A stretch of DNA of 64,000 nt, taken from Sphingobium amiense. Its GTDB lineage: Bacteria; Pseudomonadota; Alphaproteobacteria; Sphingomonadales; Sphingomonadaceae. Positions 13,220-34,400 of the stretch are shown here, one piece after another (position 1 is the first letter of the stretch; each line of letters begins with the position of its first letter). The position numbers were made by a program, and so were the translations under genes. Location: positions 1,736,001 through 1,800,000 of the forward strand of contig NZ_AP018664.1 of assembly GCF_003967075.1 (NCBI RefSeq), read 5' to 3'. The notes below the pieces were generated by a model. It did not search any database. It was not told where the DNA came from and worked only from the letters and a program-made list of their open reading frames with translations.

Positions 13220-13672
13220 ATGATTCGCGACACCATCAAGAGCGCCCAGATCGAATCGATGAAGGCGGGCGACAAGGAACGCCTTGCCGCGGTGCGCCTG
13301 ATCCTCGCCAAACTGAAGGACCGCGACATCGAACTGCGCACCGCGTCGAGCGTGCCGGACGACGACGCCGTGGTCGTGGAGGTGCTGCAGAAGATGGTGA
13401 AGCAGCGCCGCGAATCGATCGACATGTTCAAAAGCGGCGGTCGCGAGGAACTGGCGGCGAAGGAACAGGCCGAACTGGACGTGATAGAGAGCTTCCTCCC
13501 GGCCCAGATGACCGAGGACGAAACGAAGGCCACGATCGAAGGCATCAAGGCGGAAGTCGGCGCGGAGAGCGTCAAGGATATGGGCCGGGTGATGGCCGTG
13601 CTGAAAGAACGCCACGGCAGCGTCATCGACATGAGCAAGGCAAGCGGCCTGGTGAAGGCGGCCCTTTCATAG
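13220..13672 (+). CDS. GatB/YqeY domain-containing protein
   Basis: The 150-aa protein resembles the helical tail domain of the GatB subunit of glutamyl-tRNA amidotransferase (MIRDTIKSAQIESMKAGDKERLAAVRLILAKLKD at the N-terminus, KDMGRVMAVLKERHG near the end). Stand-alone YqeY proteins are widespread and tRNA binding is suspected but unproven. It diverges from carA and lies upstream of dnaG, the usual alphaproteobacterial neighbourhood. Here a DUF559 gene inside repeats separates it from dnaG. Confidence 0.9.
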   Translation: MIRDTIKSAQIESMKAGDKERLAAVRLILAKLKDRDIELRTASSVPDDDAVVVEVLQKMVKQRRESIDMFKSGGREELAAKEQAELDVIESFLPAQMTEDETKATIEGIKAEVGAESVKDMGRVMAVLKERHGSVIDMSKASGLVKAALS

Positions 13673-13685
13673 GGCGCTTCACCTA

Positions 13686-13728
13686 TTCCCCTCCCGCTTG
13701 CGGGAGGGGTCAGGGGAGGGCATGTTCG
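13686..13728 (+). repeat. REP-like palindromic repeat, left arm of the DUF559 element
   Basis: A perfect 10-base-pair palindrome (CCCCTCCCGC-TT-GCGGGAGGGG, 13688-13709) is followed by the tail TCAGGGGAGGGCATG. The whole 43-base unit recurs in inverted orientation at 14070-14112 on the other side of the DUF559 gene, with only a few mismatches. Related units occur at 31387-31484. Confidence 0.85.
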
Positions 13729-13734
13729 GCACCG

Positions 13735-14133
13735 ATGGATAAAGGCTACGCCCGCCCTACAGCAAAAGCGCGCGCCCTGCGCCACAATGCGACGGAAGCC
13801 GAACGAACATTGTGGCGGGCGATCAGTGCCCGGAAGGTCGCTGGCATCCGGTTCAATCGCCAAGTGCCGATCGGCCCCTTCATTTGCGATTTTGTGGCAC
13901 GTTCGAACAGACTCGTAATGGAAATCGACGGTGGCCAGCACAACGAGGATGCCGATGCAGAACGGACCAATTATATCGAGGCCCAAGGTTTTCGCGTGAT
14001 CCGCTTCTGGAACCATGATGTCTTGGGCAACATCGAAGGCGTTATCAGTGAAATCGAACGGGTGATAGCGGACATGCCCTCCCCCGACCCCTCCCACAAG
14101 CGGGAGGGGAGTATGGCCGGCGGAGCCTCATGA
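13735..14133 (+). CDS. DUF559 (Vsr-like PD-(D/E)XK) endonuclease-fold protein bracketed by repeats
   Basis: The 132-aa protein has the DUF559 signature: ATEAERTLWRAI (21-30), RFNRQVPIGPFICDFV (39-54), VMEIDGGQH (61-69) and FRVIRFWNHDVLGN. Asp52, Glu63, Asp65 and His69 would form the metal site of a Vsr-like nuclease. It is framed by inverted REP-like repeats. The last 19 residues (from MPSPDPSHKREG) are encoded by the right repeat, and the stop overlaps the dnaG start (ATGA). Insertion between yqeY and dnaG suggests acquisition with the repeats. Substrate and physiological role unknown. Confidence 0.85.
   Translation: MDKGYARPTAKARALRHNATEAERTLWRAISARKVAGIRFNRQVPIGPFICDFVARSNRLVMEIDGGQHNEDADAERTNYIEAQGFRVIRFWNHDVLGNIEGVISEIERVIADMPSPDPSHKREGSMAGGAS
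14070..14112 (-). repeat. REP-like palindromic repeat, right arm of the DUF559 element
   Basis: Inverted copy of the unit at 13686-13728. The CATGCCCTCCCCCGA tail is followed by the palindrome CCCCTCCC-ACAA-GCGGGAGGGG (14088-14109). The tails of both arms point inward towards the gene. This copy lies within the coding end of the DUF559 gene and ends 18 bases before the dnaG start. Confidence 0.85.
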
Positions 14134-16034
14134 CCCTCACCCCGCAATTTCTCGACGAACTGCGCGCCCGCACGTCGCTGTCGACGCTGATAGGCCGGAC
14201 GGTGAAGGTGCAGAAGGCGGGTCGCGAACATAAGGCCTGCTGCCCGTTCCATAACGAAAAGACGCCCAGCTTCACAATCAACGACGAAAAGGGCTTCTAC
14301 CATTGTTTCGGCTGCGGCGCGCATGGCGACGCGATCCGCTGGATGACCGATCATCGCGGCCTGCCCTTCATGGAGGCGGTGAAGGAACTGGCCGCCACCG
14401 CCGGAATGGATGTCCCCGCCCCCGACCCGCGCGCCGCGAAACGGGCCGAACAGGCGAAGGGGCTGCATGACGTGATGGCGGCGGCGCAGGATTTCTTCGT
14501 CGCGCAACTCGACTCCATCGAAGGCGCGGAGGCGCGCGCCTATCTGAACAAACGCGGCATCAGCGAGGCCACGCGCCGGGCTTTTGGTTTCGGCTTCGCG
14601 CCCGACTCGCGCGGAAAGCTGAAGACCGCGCTCAGGGAATTTGGCGACCCGATGCTGATCGAGGCAGGGTTGCTCATCGAGCCGGATGGCGCCGAGCCGG
14701 ATGGCGAAAGCAAAAGAAAACGCGAAAGCTACGACCGCTTCCGCGGCCGCCTCATGCTGCCGATCCGCGACATTCGCGGGCGGGTGATTGCCTTTGGCGG
14801 GCGCATTCTCGGGACCGGCGAACCCAAATATCTGAACTCGCCCGACACCCCCCTTTTCGATAAGGGGCGCACGCTTTACAATATCGACCGCGCTTCCCCG
14901 GCCAGCCGCCAGACCGGGCGCATCATCGTCGTCGAAGGCTATATGGACGTGATCGCGCTGGCGCAGGCGGGCTTTGCCGATGCCGTCGCGCCGCTGGGCA
15001 CCGCACTCACCGAGCACCAGATCGAGCGCCTCTGGAAGATGGTGGAGGTGCCCATCCTCTGCTTCGACGGCGACAGCGCGGGGCAGAAGGCCGCGATCCG
15101 CGCCGCCGCCCGCGCCCTTCCACTGCTGCGGCCCGGCCACAGCCTCTGCTTCGCGACGCTTCCGGCGGGGCAAGACCCTGACGATCTCCTCCGCGACAGC
15201 GGCCCCGCTGCGATGGACGCGGTGCTGGACAAGGCGCAGTCGCTGGTCGAGCGCTTGTGGAGCCATGAGATAGCAGCCGCCCCGCTCGACACGCCCGAGC
15301 AGAAAGCCGCACTCAAACAGCGGCTGCGCGCCCTGTCCGATTCGATCCAGCACCCCGATGTGCGTGCCCACTATGCCCATGAGTTTCGCGAGCGTTACGA
15401 CGCCCTGTTCTTCGCGCGGCGGGACAGCCAGAACGCCCAGCCGCGCGGCACGGGGGGCAACTCCGCGCCGCGCTGGCAGCGCGACCGGCGCGGCAACTGG
15501 AAACCGCCCCTCCCGCCCGCGGGCACCGAAGCGCGGGCGATCGGCGTGAGCGGGCTGGAACAAAGATTGCTGAGCGCCGTTCTTGCCAGTCTGCTGCGCC
15601 ATCCCGACCAGATCGCGCCGCACCGCGAGCCGCTTTCGGCCCTGCGAATCGCGGATCCGGTCCTCTCGCAACTGCTCGGGGCGATGATCGAGTGCTCGCT
15701 GCGCAAAGAAACAGTTGAAACGCATGCCCTCCTTACCATATTGGGCCAAGGTGAAGTGTATAATAGGGCCAAGGGGATGCTCCGGGCCGACACGTTCTCA
15801 CTCACCCCACACAGGATGACAGCCGATCCCGGTCGCGTGGCGCGCGATCTGGAGGAAGCTGTGCGGGTGATGGCGCAGGGACCGGAGCTGGAAGCGGCGC
15901 TGGTGGAAGCAACGAGGCGGTTCGAGAAGGACTTCAGCGAGGAAAATTTCGCTGAGCAGCAGCGCATCCGCGCGCTAAAGGCCGATCACGACCGACGACT
16001 GGCGGAACTCGTGCAGCCCGAAGATGGTATTTGA
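14130..16034 (+). CDS. dnaG: DNA primase
   Basis: Synthesises RNA primers at the replication fork. The 634-aa protein has the CHC2 zinc finger (CCPFHNEKTPSF...FHCFGCGAHGD, about residues 32-60), the TOPRIM core with VVEGYMDVIALAQAG and CFDGDSAGQKAA, and a C-terminal helicase-binding domain of normal size. The start overlaps the DUF559 stop by ATGA, so primase translation may be coupled to a repeat-encoded end. rpoD follows after 42 bases, the conserved dnaG-rpoD order. Confidence 0.97.
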   Translation: MTLTPQFLDELRARTSLSTLIGRTVKVQKAGREHKACCPFHNEKTPSFTINDEKGFYHCFGCGAHGDAIRWMTDHRGLPFMEAVKELAATAGMDVPAPDPRAAKRAEQAKGLHDVMAAAQDFFVAQLDSIEGAEARAYLNKRGISEATRRAFGFGFAPDSRGKLKTALREFGDPMLIEAGLLIEPDGAEPDGESKRKRESYDRFRGRLMLPIRDIRGRVIAFGGRILGTGEPKYLNSPDTPLFDKGRTLYNIDRASPASRQTGRIIVVEGYMDVIALAQAGFADAVAPLGTALTEHQIERLWKMVEVPILCFDGDSAGQKAAIRAAARALPLLRPGHSLCFATLPAGQDPDDLLRDSGPAAMDAVLDKAQSLVERLWSHEIAAAPLDTPEQKAALKQRLRALSDSIQHPDVRAHYAHEFRERYDALFFARRDSQNAQPRGTGGNSAPRWQRDRRGNWKPPLPPAGTEARAIGVSGLEQRLLSAVLASLLRHPDQIAPHREPLSALRIADPVLSQLLGAMIECSLRKETVETHALLTILGQGEVYNRAKGMLRADTFSLTPHRMTADPGRVARDLEEAVRVMAQGPELEAALVEATRRFEKDFSEENFAEQQRIRALKADHDRRLAELVQPEDGI

Positions 16035-31380: not shown

Positions 31381-31386
31381 CCTTAT

Positions 31387-31484
31387 CCCCCCTCCCGCCT
31401 GCGGGAGGGGGCAGGGGGTGGGCTTTCACTACCCTTTGCGTCAAGCCTGCCCACCCCTAGCCCCTCCCGCAAGCGGGAGGGGAA
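31387..31484. repeat. Gene-less pair of REP-like repeats (same family as around DUF559)
   Basis: The left unit (31387-31425) contains CCTCCCGC-CT-GCGGGAGG and the tail GGGCAGGGGGTGGGC. The right unit (31443-31484) contains GCCCACCCCTAG and CCCCTCCCGC-AA-GCGGGAGGGG. The tails point inward as in the DUF559 element, but only 17 bases separate them. The pair ends 10 bases before the mfd start. Confidence 0.85.
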
Positions 31485-31494
31485 TGAGTTGTAA

Positions 31495-34400
31495 ATGACC
31501 GACCTCCCGAAAATCCTCCGCGCCAGGGCGCCCCTCACCCTCTCCGGCGTCCCGGCGGGGTTCCAGCCATGGCTCCTCGCCGACATCGCCCGCGCGGCAA
31601 CGACCCGCGCGATGTTCATCGCAGCCGATGAACAGCACGCCCGCGCCATCGCCGACACCGCGCCCGCCTTCGCGCCGGAACTGGAGGTGGTCGAGATTCC
31701 GGCCTGGGACTGTCTGCCCTATGACCGCGCCAGCCCCTCGCTGCGCGCCGCCTCCGCGCGTCTCGCGGGTCTCTACGCACTTCAGGCGAAACCCAAAGGC
31801 CCGCAACTCGTCGTCACCACGCTCGCGGCCATGACCCAGCGCACCCTCACCCCCTTCCGCGTGCGCCAGCTCGTCGCAAAACTCGCGCCCAAGGAACGGA
31901 TCGCGATCCAGCGCCTTGCCGACATGCTCCAGGCGAACGGCTATGTCCGCACAGACACCGTCCATGACCGGGGCGAATTCGCCATCCGCGGCGGCATTGT
32001 CGATCTGTTCCCCGGCGGCGAGGAACAGCCGCTGCGCCTCGACTTTTTCGGCGACGAGATCGAGACCGTCCGCCGCTTCGACCCCGCCGACCAGCGCACC
32101 ACGGGCAGCGTCGACGGCTTCACCCTCCTCCCCGCCTCCGAAGCGCTGCTGGACGAAGACACGATCAAGCGCTTCCGCCTGCGCTACCGCGAAACCTTCG
32201 GCGCGACCGCGACCGGCGACCCGCTCTATCAGGCGGTCAGCGACGGCCGCCGCCTCGCGGGCATGGAGCACTGGCTCCCGCTGTTCGAGGAAAAGCTGGT
32301 CCCGCTGACCGACCATCTGGGCGATGCCGTCATCGTGCGCGACCATGGCGTCGCGGGCGCGGCGGACAGCCGGTTCGAGGCGATCCGCGACTATCACGCC
32401 AACCGGGTGCAGGCGAAGTCCGCCGATCCCGGCTCCTATCGCCCGCTGAAGCCCGAATCCCTCTATCTCGACGCCGCCGAATGGGACGCCGCCGTGGCGA
32501 GCGCGCCCATGCACGCCACCACGCCCTTTCATGAGCCGGAAAGCGCCGCCGTCCTCGACTTCGCGGTGGACGGCCCCCGCGACTTCACCCCCGAACGCAC
32601 GCAGAACGCCAACATCTACGAAGCCGTCGGCAAGCATATCGACTCGCTCCGCCGCCAGAAGAAGAAGGTCGTCATCGCCAGCTATTCCGGCGGCGCGCGC
32701 GAGCGCCTCTCGGGCCTGCTCGCCGACCATGGCGTATCCCGCCTCGCCGCCGCCGACGACTGGCAGGAGGCGCTGGGCCTCGCTGCGGACGGCCGCGTCA
32801 CGCTCATCGTCCTCGGCCTCGACCACGGCTTCACCGCGCCCGATGTCGCCGTCCTCACCGAACAGGACATGCTGGGCGACCGGCTCGTCCGCCGCGCCAA
32901 GCGCAAGAAGAGCGCCGACGCCTTCCTCCAGGAACTCGCCACCCTCACTCCCGGCGACCTCGTCGTCCACCGCGATCACGGCATCGGCCGCTATGACGGG
33001 CTCACCCAAATACCGGTGGCGAAGGCCCCGCACGATTGCGTCGCACTCGAATATGCGGGCGGAGACAAACTCTACGTCCCCGTCGAAAATCTCGAAGTCC
33101 TCTCCCGCTACGGCTCCGAAACCGATGGCGTAAGCCTCGACAGGCTGGGCGGTGAAGCGTGGCAGCGGCGCAAGGCGAAGATGAAGGAGCGCATCCGCGA
33201 AATCGCGGGCGAACTCCTGAAGACCGCCGCCGCCCGCGCGCTGCGCCCCGCCACGGTCGCGGAACCGGACCATGCCGGCTACCCCGCCTTCGTCGATCGC
33301 TTCCCCTATCAGGAAACCGACGATCAGGATCGCGCCATCAGCGACGTGATCGAGGATCTTGGCGCGGGCAAGCCGATGGACCGGCTCGTCTGCGGCGATG
33401 TCGGCTTCGGCAAGACGGAGGTCGCGCTGCGCGCCGCCTTCGTCGCGGCGATGGCTGGGATGCAGGTCGTGGTGATCTGCCCCACCACCCTGCTCGCGCG
33501 CCAGCATCATATGAATTTCGTCGACCGCTTCCGCGGCTTCCCCATCGAGATCGGCCGCCTCTCCCGCCTCGTCCCCGACAAGGAAGCGAAGGCGGTGAAG
33601 GCGGGCCTTGCCGATGGCAGCATCGACATCGTCGTCGGCACCCACGCGCTGCTCGCCAAGGGCATCGAATTCAAGCGCCTCGGCCTCGTCATCGTGGACG
33701 AGGAACAGCGGTTCGGCGTCACCCACAAGGAACGCTTGAAGTCCCTCAAGACCGATGTCCACGTCCTGACGCTCACCGCCACGCCCATTCCCCGCACGCT
33801 CCAGATGGCGATGTCGGGCCTGCGCGAACTCTCCGTCATCCAGACGCCTCCCGTGGACCGCCTCGCGGTGCGCACCTATGTCATGCCGTGGGACGGCGTC
33901 GTCATCCGCGAAGCGCTGCTGCGCGAACATTATCGCGGCGGACAGAGCTTCTTCGTCGTCCCCCGCATCGCCGACCTGACCGAAATCGAGGATTTTCTCC
34001 GCACCGAAGTGCCCGAGGTCAAACCCATCGTCGCCCACGGCCAGATGAGCGCCACCGAGGTCGAGGAGCGCATGTCCGCCTTCTACGACAAGCGCTATGA
34101 CGTGCTGCTTTCGACCACCATCGTCGAATCCGGCCTCGACATCCCCAGCGCAAACACGCTCATCATCCACCGTGCCGACCGCTTCGGCCTCGCCCAGCTC
34201 TATCAGCTTCGCGGGCGCGTGGGCCGGTCGAAGACGCGCGCCTATGCCTATATGACGACGCCCGCCAACCGCATCATCACCGAAACGGCCGAAAAGCGGC
34301 TCAAGGTGCTGTCGGACCTCGACACGCTGGGCGCGGGCTTTCAGCTTGCATCCCACGATCTCGACATTCGCGGCGCGGGCAACCTCGTCGGCGACGAACA

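Follow-up and report, generated by a model that had tools for sequence, protein, structure and literature searches.

In RAYT/REP/REPIN systems, as described in the parts of PMC2817692 on which we draw, a single gene lies between two inverted palindromic repeats, inverted doublets of these repeats are dispersed, and repeat type and protein co-diverge. A different class of palindrome, the triplex motif (TM/PIT) of Holder 2015 (PMC4666352), comprises a C-rich arm, a G-rich arm and a third, G-rich strand that mirrors the G-rich arm. According to the sections of that paper used here, the motif is present in more than 260 genomes, and its E. coli form, TM_ECO, which is arranged in inverted pairs at five sites, forms triplexes in vitro (CD/NMR); in vivo, DMS footprinting gave no guanine protection and a polymerase stop was seen before the motif. 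The same sections report that mobility activities (transposase or integrase remnants) were never found around TM_ECO sites, and the paper's main text contains no mention of DUF or ycjD. We describe here a nuclease gene, with the repeats on either side of it, that shares with the RAYT systems the three features listed above, and with TM_ECO the composition of the repeat and its occurrence as paired inverted copies. Two features separate it from RAYT systems: its enzyme is a Vsr-like PD-(D/E)XK nuclease and not an HUH/Y1 tyrosine transposase, and its repeats, when inspected by eye, carry a mirror G-rich tail instead of a GTAG-type head. TM_ECO, by contrast, is described in the cited sections without a nearby mobility gene. 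We consider it fairly probable that the DUF559 gene, together with the inverted repeats on its two sides, constitutes a single RAYT/REPIN-like unit built from unrelated parts.

The window (i.e., the whole stretch of 64,000 nucleotides of Sphingobium amiense DNA that was analyzed) contains three genes in one direction, all on the forward strand: yqeY (13220-13672) and dnaG (14130-16034), host genes that mark the left and right sides of the insertion site, and between them the DUF559 gene (13735-14133), whose stop codon overlaps the start of dnaG in the sequence ATGA. Its 132-aa product matches the profile PF04480 (DUF559) with an E of 3e-37. The left triplex repeat, which was recognized by an inverted-repeat search and a mirror-tail test, occupies positions 13684-13728 of the forward strand and reads CCCCTCCCGC-TT-GCGGGAGGGG-TCA-GGGGAGGG, with its tail towards the gene; the right one (14069-14113, reverse strand) is the left repeat inverted. 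These inverted arms are 45 nt long, 91% complementary and separated by 340 nt, and both G-rich tails point inward. An earlier note on this sequence had described two palindromes with G-rich tails, inverted around the gene with their tails inward, which is what we find; the 10-nt arms that it reported are perfect on the left, but those on the right contain a mismatch, and the right repeat supplies 14 codons of the gene (residues 113-126), not the last 19 codons as had been proposed. The window contains four matches to the pattern of the core palindrome, as opposed to 0.00 expected from shuffled sequences: two in the enclosing pair, and two, at 31391 and 31463, in a gene-less, REPIN-like pair of the same repeats (31388-31485, about 100 nt) that folds into a single long hairpin (z -6.5). 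The enclosure of the window's DUF559 gene by inverted repeats is therefore real and far above chance.

The repeats that flank DUF559 genes consist of a palindrome with one C-rich and one G-rich arm, followed by a G-rich tail that mirrors the G-rich arm, such that pyrimidine arm, purine arm and a third strand mirroring the purine arm lie on one strand, as in the TM/PIT architecture. The mirror order, with matching interruptions, recurs in very different repeat families (AGGGAAGGGG...GGGGATGGGT and GGGGCGGAGAGGG...GGGAGAGGTGGGG). Across 249 flanking repeats, which are the stems detected on the 310 flanks supplied and include some that have no true tail, the mean arm-tail score is 6.85 in mirror orientation, 5.53 in direct orientation and 3.28 with shuffled tails; the mirror orientation fits better in 144, the direct in 37, and 68 are ties. 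When each asymmetric arm type is counted only once, mirror order is still preferred (34 types vs. 12, with 12 ties; p = 0.0016). The segment that joins arm to tail in one repeat type forms a second hairpin of its own: across 72 different loop sequences, 281 of 288 outer pairs are conserved, whereas the maximum in 1000 shuffles was 182. From its sequence, we identify the flanking repeat as the intrastrand triplex motif, TM/PIT (Holder 2015, PMC4666352, in the sections cited above); the previous description as a palindrome with a G-rich tail was accurate but had missed the triplex-motif nature of that tail. Inspection by eye of the printed repeats from the relatives, the class-wide sample and the genus revealed no GTAG/GTGG head beside the palindrome. 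The left repeat of the window contains a perfect G4 motif. We favor a G-quadruplex less, since many families have a hairpin between arm and tail and have kept mirror symmetry of the two, which better fits a triplex.

If the arrangement in the window were peculiar to it, DUF559 genes elsewhere would not be flanked more often than other sequences. We scored, without reference to any motif, how well the two flanks of each DUF559 domain match each other in inverted orientation (best match without gaps) and used equally spaced windows elsewhere in the same loci as controls; the test is strand-symmetric apart from small window margins. Among relatives recovered by peptide search (80 loci, 78 testable after L061 and L073 were dropped at contig edges, and including a few from outside Proteobacteria), a score of at least 15 was obtained at 73 of 78 loci vs. 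4 of 1553 controls, and 18 was reached by 71 of 78 vs. none of 1553. One of the six query peptides behind this sample is encoded by the repeat, a bias from which the HMM samples are free. In the class-wide HMM sample, the 75 strongest matches (E <= 1.8e-21) from 142 genomes searched, less one at an edge (L123), a score of at least 15 was found at 53 of 74 loci (1 of 653 controls), and in one genus at 61 of 78 (2 of 1120 controls); both samples leave out matches weaker than 1.8e-21, including the interrupted gene of S. amiense itself (L007/L008). A phylum sample, made up of the 27 new loci among 30 returned as the best match per genome, gave scores of at least 16 at 16 of 27 loci vs. 2 of 162 controls, and of the 15 loci in it that come from other classes of the phylum, 10 score at least 16. 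L162 in the phylum sample and L230 in the genus sample are counted as misses. The expectation that such repeats would flank DUF559 genes more often than controls was thus borne out, and the association supposed for sphingomonads holds there but is not limited to them, as the pairing reaches beyond. Against our preferred reading, 21 of the 74 class-wide and 17 of the 78 genus genes fall below a score of 15. When DUF559 ORFs were called mechanically, repeats (score at least 15) were recovered at only 16 of 38, we think because many called ORFs begin 5' of the left repeat. Some DUF559 genes (L167, L155, L125, L084) have much longer matched ends, with an inverted match of 50-100 nt and in some cases internal stem-loops; these may be recent copies and may be useful for defining the exact ends of the unit.

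In the S. amiense genome, eight DUF559 matches correspond to seven genes, one of which is interrupted. The repeats differ from gene to gene (e.g., CCTCCCGCTTGCGGGAGG, TCTCCCCCAAGGGGAGA and CCTCCCCTTCAGGGGAGG), and some of the palindromes from these flanks also occur in gene-less pairs, 65-105 nt apart. The same genome encodes one Y1 transposase, and a link between REPs and RAYTs is known from other systems (PMC2817692, in the parts cited), so that a RAYT/IS200-like transposase or recombinase might be what moves the repeats, the DUF559 gene being cargo caught between two copies. Several observations make this very unlikely. By eye, the printed flanks of the Y1 transposase gene show no triplex repeats, only a short GGAGG/CCTCC hairpin downstream, while each of the six uninterrupted DUF559 genes lies between matching inverted repeats (scores 20-37), and repeats also flank the seventh, which is interrupted. 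Moreover, co-divergence with the surrounding repeat type, as seen in the 76 labeled genes considered next, is not what one would expect of cargo.

Seven repeat types were assigned by eye from the flank sequences of 78 DUF559 genes in 20 of 21 genus genomes; the typing preceded a valid protein tree, and the label of L277 was set by hand. On the protein tree (n = 77, L230 being left out; 76 labeled, with L289 unlabeled), repeat type changes 10 times (minimum 6), as against a mean of 48.8 when labels are shuffled, and none of 200 shuffles was as low; genome labels change 65 times on the same tree. The genes occupy 26 clusters of genomic location; when each location is represented by a single gene (n = 25), there are 7 changes, whereas shuffled labels need 16.1 on average and never fewer than 12. 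Repeat type therefore tracks the nuclease itself, beyond any effect of a shared place. The agreement of protein and repeat phylogenies is, in this form, that of repeat types mapped on the protein tree alone. T1 palindromes are more numerous in genomes that have a T1-clade nuclease (16 vs. 5 genomes, p = 0.011), as are T4 ends in genomes that have a T3/4-clade nuclease (12 vs. 9 genomes, p = 0.009), counts of cognate repeats that include some copies forming the nuclease's own flanks; the crossed, non-cognate comparisons gave p = 0.13 and 0.27. The suggestion that DUF559 might play a RAYT-like role gains strength from this co-divergence.

In addition to framing genes, the repeats occur in the genome as dispersed inverted doublets. 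The site that the gene-less pair occupies in the window was matched in all 61 genus genomes. Of the 30 orthologous loci that we examined, 11, counting S. amiense itself, carry by our reading a pair like that of the window, 7 have triplex repeats of a different type and 8 have hairpin elements of other kinds; the remaining 4 are short, with a length of 7 nt in L212 and L213. This junction (31381-31495; loci L188-L217) looks like a shared landing place for unrelated repeat-pair families in different species, and the pairs there begin a few bases from the upstream stop codon. The presence/absence comparison that the earlier note had proposed for the yqeY-dnaG junction came out in favor of its interpretation. 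Among 21 genus genomes, 13 have a DUF559 unit there, of at least three kinds and with one gene interrupted (G382), three have a GIY-YIG gene or its remnant, three are empty (10, 12 and 13 nt), and two have no unit but are 85 and 192 nt long. It speaks against the preferred reading that the window's own unit is old: 48 of 80 relatives hold theirs at this same place between yqeY and dnaG. In 2 of 12 aligned rows a repeat pair lies within the carA reading frame (L014, 8644-8745; L019, 2256-2286). The stretch of carA that holds triplex repeats in some Sphingobium species is also variable among relatives. No target duplication was seen on unsystematic inspection, which counts against the preferred reading.

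A more conventional view takes DUF559 for a nuclease of very-short-patch-type repair or of housekeeping, and the repeats for terminators, mRNA-stabilizing hairpins or translation signals that bracket a small gene. Caulobacter VsrA, which has a DUF559 domain, has been proposed to act in mismatch repair (PMC12907096, in the part cited), strong hairpins lie directly 3' of stop codons, and in several relatives the end of the right repeat, GGGAGGGGAG, is a few bases 5' of the dnaG start. Terminators, however, have no need for matching copies, for a type that changes with nuclease clade across sites, for a mirror tail or for gene-less spread; and among other ORFs in the peptide-search loci, only 1 of 416 with 90-250 aa and only 1 of 502 longer ones had a flank score of at least 15. 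We regard this explanation as unlikely. The DUF559 nucleases resemble Vsr endonuclease (1cw0, 1vsr) in fold and VsrA in domain, and differ from both in that the consistent neighbor of their genes is a pair of repeats.

In the window nuclease, the putative catalytic residues E23, D52, E63, D65 and H69 are invariant in 27 aligned sequences. Its AlphaFold2 model (pLDDT 83) is matched by Foldseek to 3hrl (E 9.5e-9), to the EDxHD homing endonuclease I-Bth0305I (3r3p; about 3e-4) and to Vsr (1cw0; 6e-3), and a sequence profile match to I-Bth0305I has an E of 0.0023. The predicted fold is related to the catalytic fold of EDxHD homing endonucleases, and I-Bth0305I is the closest functional fold of a mobility nuclease; yet identity is only 16-18%, and the DUF559 protein is a bare catalytic domain that lies within no intron or intein and is framed by repeats. 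A DUF559 gene had already been called a member of the EDxHD family in 2022 (PMC9403480, in the part cited). We also considered a defense function and rejected it, because the nuclease matched none of the families in the PADLOC models of known anti-phage defense.

This kinship raises the alternative of a homing-like selfish gene, whose nuclease cleaves empty intergenic sites and whose repeat ends serve mainly as borders for recombination or capture and not as a recognized substrate. The nearest solved folds of the model include a homing endonuclease, several nuclease clades share the yqeY-dnaG junction, and another homing family, GIY-YIG, has the same layout with other repeats, its gene replacing the DUF559 unit at that junction in G381 and G389, with an apparent remnant in G385 (loci L299, L301, L302). 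In the same genus, GIY-YIG loci reach a flank score of 15 in 22 of 28 cases vs. 2 of 252 controls, and of 20 in 17 of 28 vs. none of 252, the sample being the best-scoring 30 (L311-L340) and not a random draw, less two incomplete loci (L322, L339); loci with frames of UvrC length (L330, L331) were negative. The GIY-YIG repeats belong to families other than those of DUF559 (CCGTTCGNNCTGAGC...GTCGAAG; GTCATTCCCGCGAAGGCGGGAAT). This parallel suggests that several unrelated nuclease families have built REP-like repeats or been recruited by them. For DUF559, gene-less pairs at many non-homologous sites and the tie between repeat type and nuclease clade speak against mere borders; together they suggest that the repeat itself is recognized, and we judge the homing alternative improbable.

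The connection of DUF559 with TM/PIT repeats extends to E. coli, a link absent from the earlier note, whose pairing of DUF559 with repeats otherwise stands. In MG1655, the product of ycjD is a DUF559 protein (PF04480, E 1.4e-49), although the E. coli control genome gave no match in our PF04480 family searches. TM_ECO no. 9 is situated about 170 nt past the ycjD stop codon, before fabI; with 18 TM places, chance would put 0.003 of them within 250 nt of any one gene. The ycjD gene adjoins TM repeats and is not enclosed by them, and there is an apparent decayed repeat at its 3' end. Downstream of ycjD (L160:4240-4420, MG1655), a piece of the gene's 3' end recurs (GAGACGGTGCTGGAGAATATTC...), which suggests that the DNA beside the triplex repeat was once rearranged. 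Across 249 genomes, 39 contain both strict TM copies and a DUF559 match (E<1e-6), 24 DUF559 only (the strict pattern leaves other repeat types uncounted), 12 TM only and 174 neither, an odds ratio of 23.6 for which a Fisher p overstates the evidence because related genomes are not independent; 1259 of the 1568 strict copies are in DUF559 genomes. Seven genomes have 10-130 strict copies and no DUF559 match at E<1e-6 (G271, G188, G292, G042, G329, G183 and G156, among which G271 is 87% and G292 69% complete); therefore, the repeats persist without the gene. Those TM-rich genomes that have no strong DUF559 match, such as G271, G188, G042 and G329, may have lost the nuclease or have another partner.

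The comparisons establish that repeats enclose the gene, that their design is a mirrored one, that their type co-diverges with the nuclease, that they are dispersed, and that orthologous sites may be filled or empty. To account for these patterns under the reading that we prefer, gene and repeats as one unit, we infer from sequence comparisons that the DUF559 nuclease moves the repeats. Each repeat would form a hairpin of C-rich and G-rich arms onto which the third, G-rich strand folds back as an intrastrand triplex. The nuclease would recognize a folded repeat of the type that flanks its own gene, probably while the DNA is single-stranded at a replication fork, and nick beside it, after which host repair might copy or capture the repeat-bounded segment at a new place. 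We know of no strand-joining activity among hydrolytic nucleases of the Vsr-like fold family, and host repair would therefore have to complete the movement, as in homing. Dispersed gene-less pairs would be non-autonomous, REPIN-like derivatives of the DUF559 unit. Open-access literature, searched by title and the opening of the abstract, with subscription papers and preprints mostly outside its scope, yielded no report of a link between DUF559 and these repeats.

The recurrence of this pairing of nuclease and repeat across many bacteria suggests that a widespread repeat family, previously without an enzyme partner, has one. More tentatively, and with somewhat more doubt than conviction, we propose that small homing-type nucleases could drive whole families of bacterial palindromic repeats, DUF559 reading triplexes and spreading TM/PIT repeats across Proteobacteria, E. 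coli included, and GIY-YIG nucleases doing likewise for other families in the same genomes. If true, there would be a class of repeat-moving systems that employ hydrolytic nucleases and structure-based recognition of DNA and that are unrelated to transposases. With a nuclease family linked to them, the repeats become open to direct test in E. coli K-12 through ycjD. DUF559, whose function is unknown and whose naming rests mostly on analogy with Vsr, would gain a concrete DNA partner, and may be a protein family that evolved to read intrastrand DNA triplexes.
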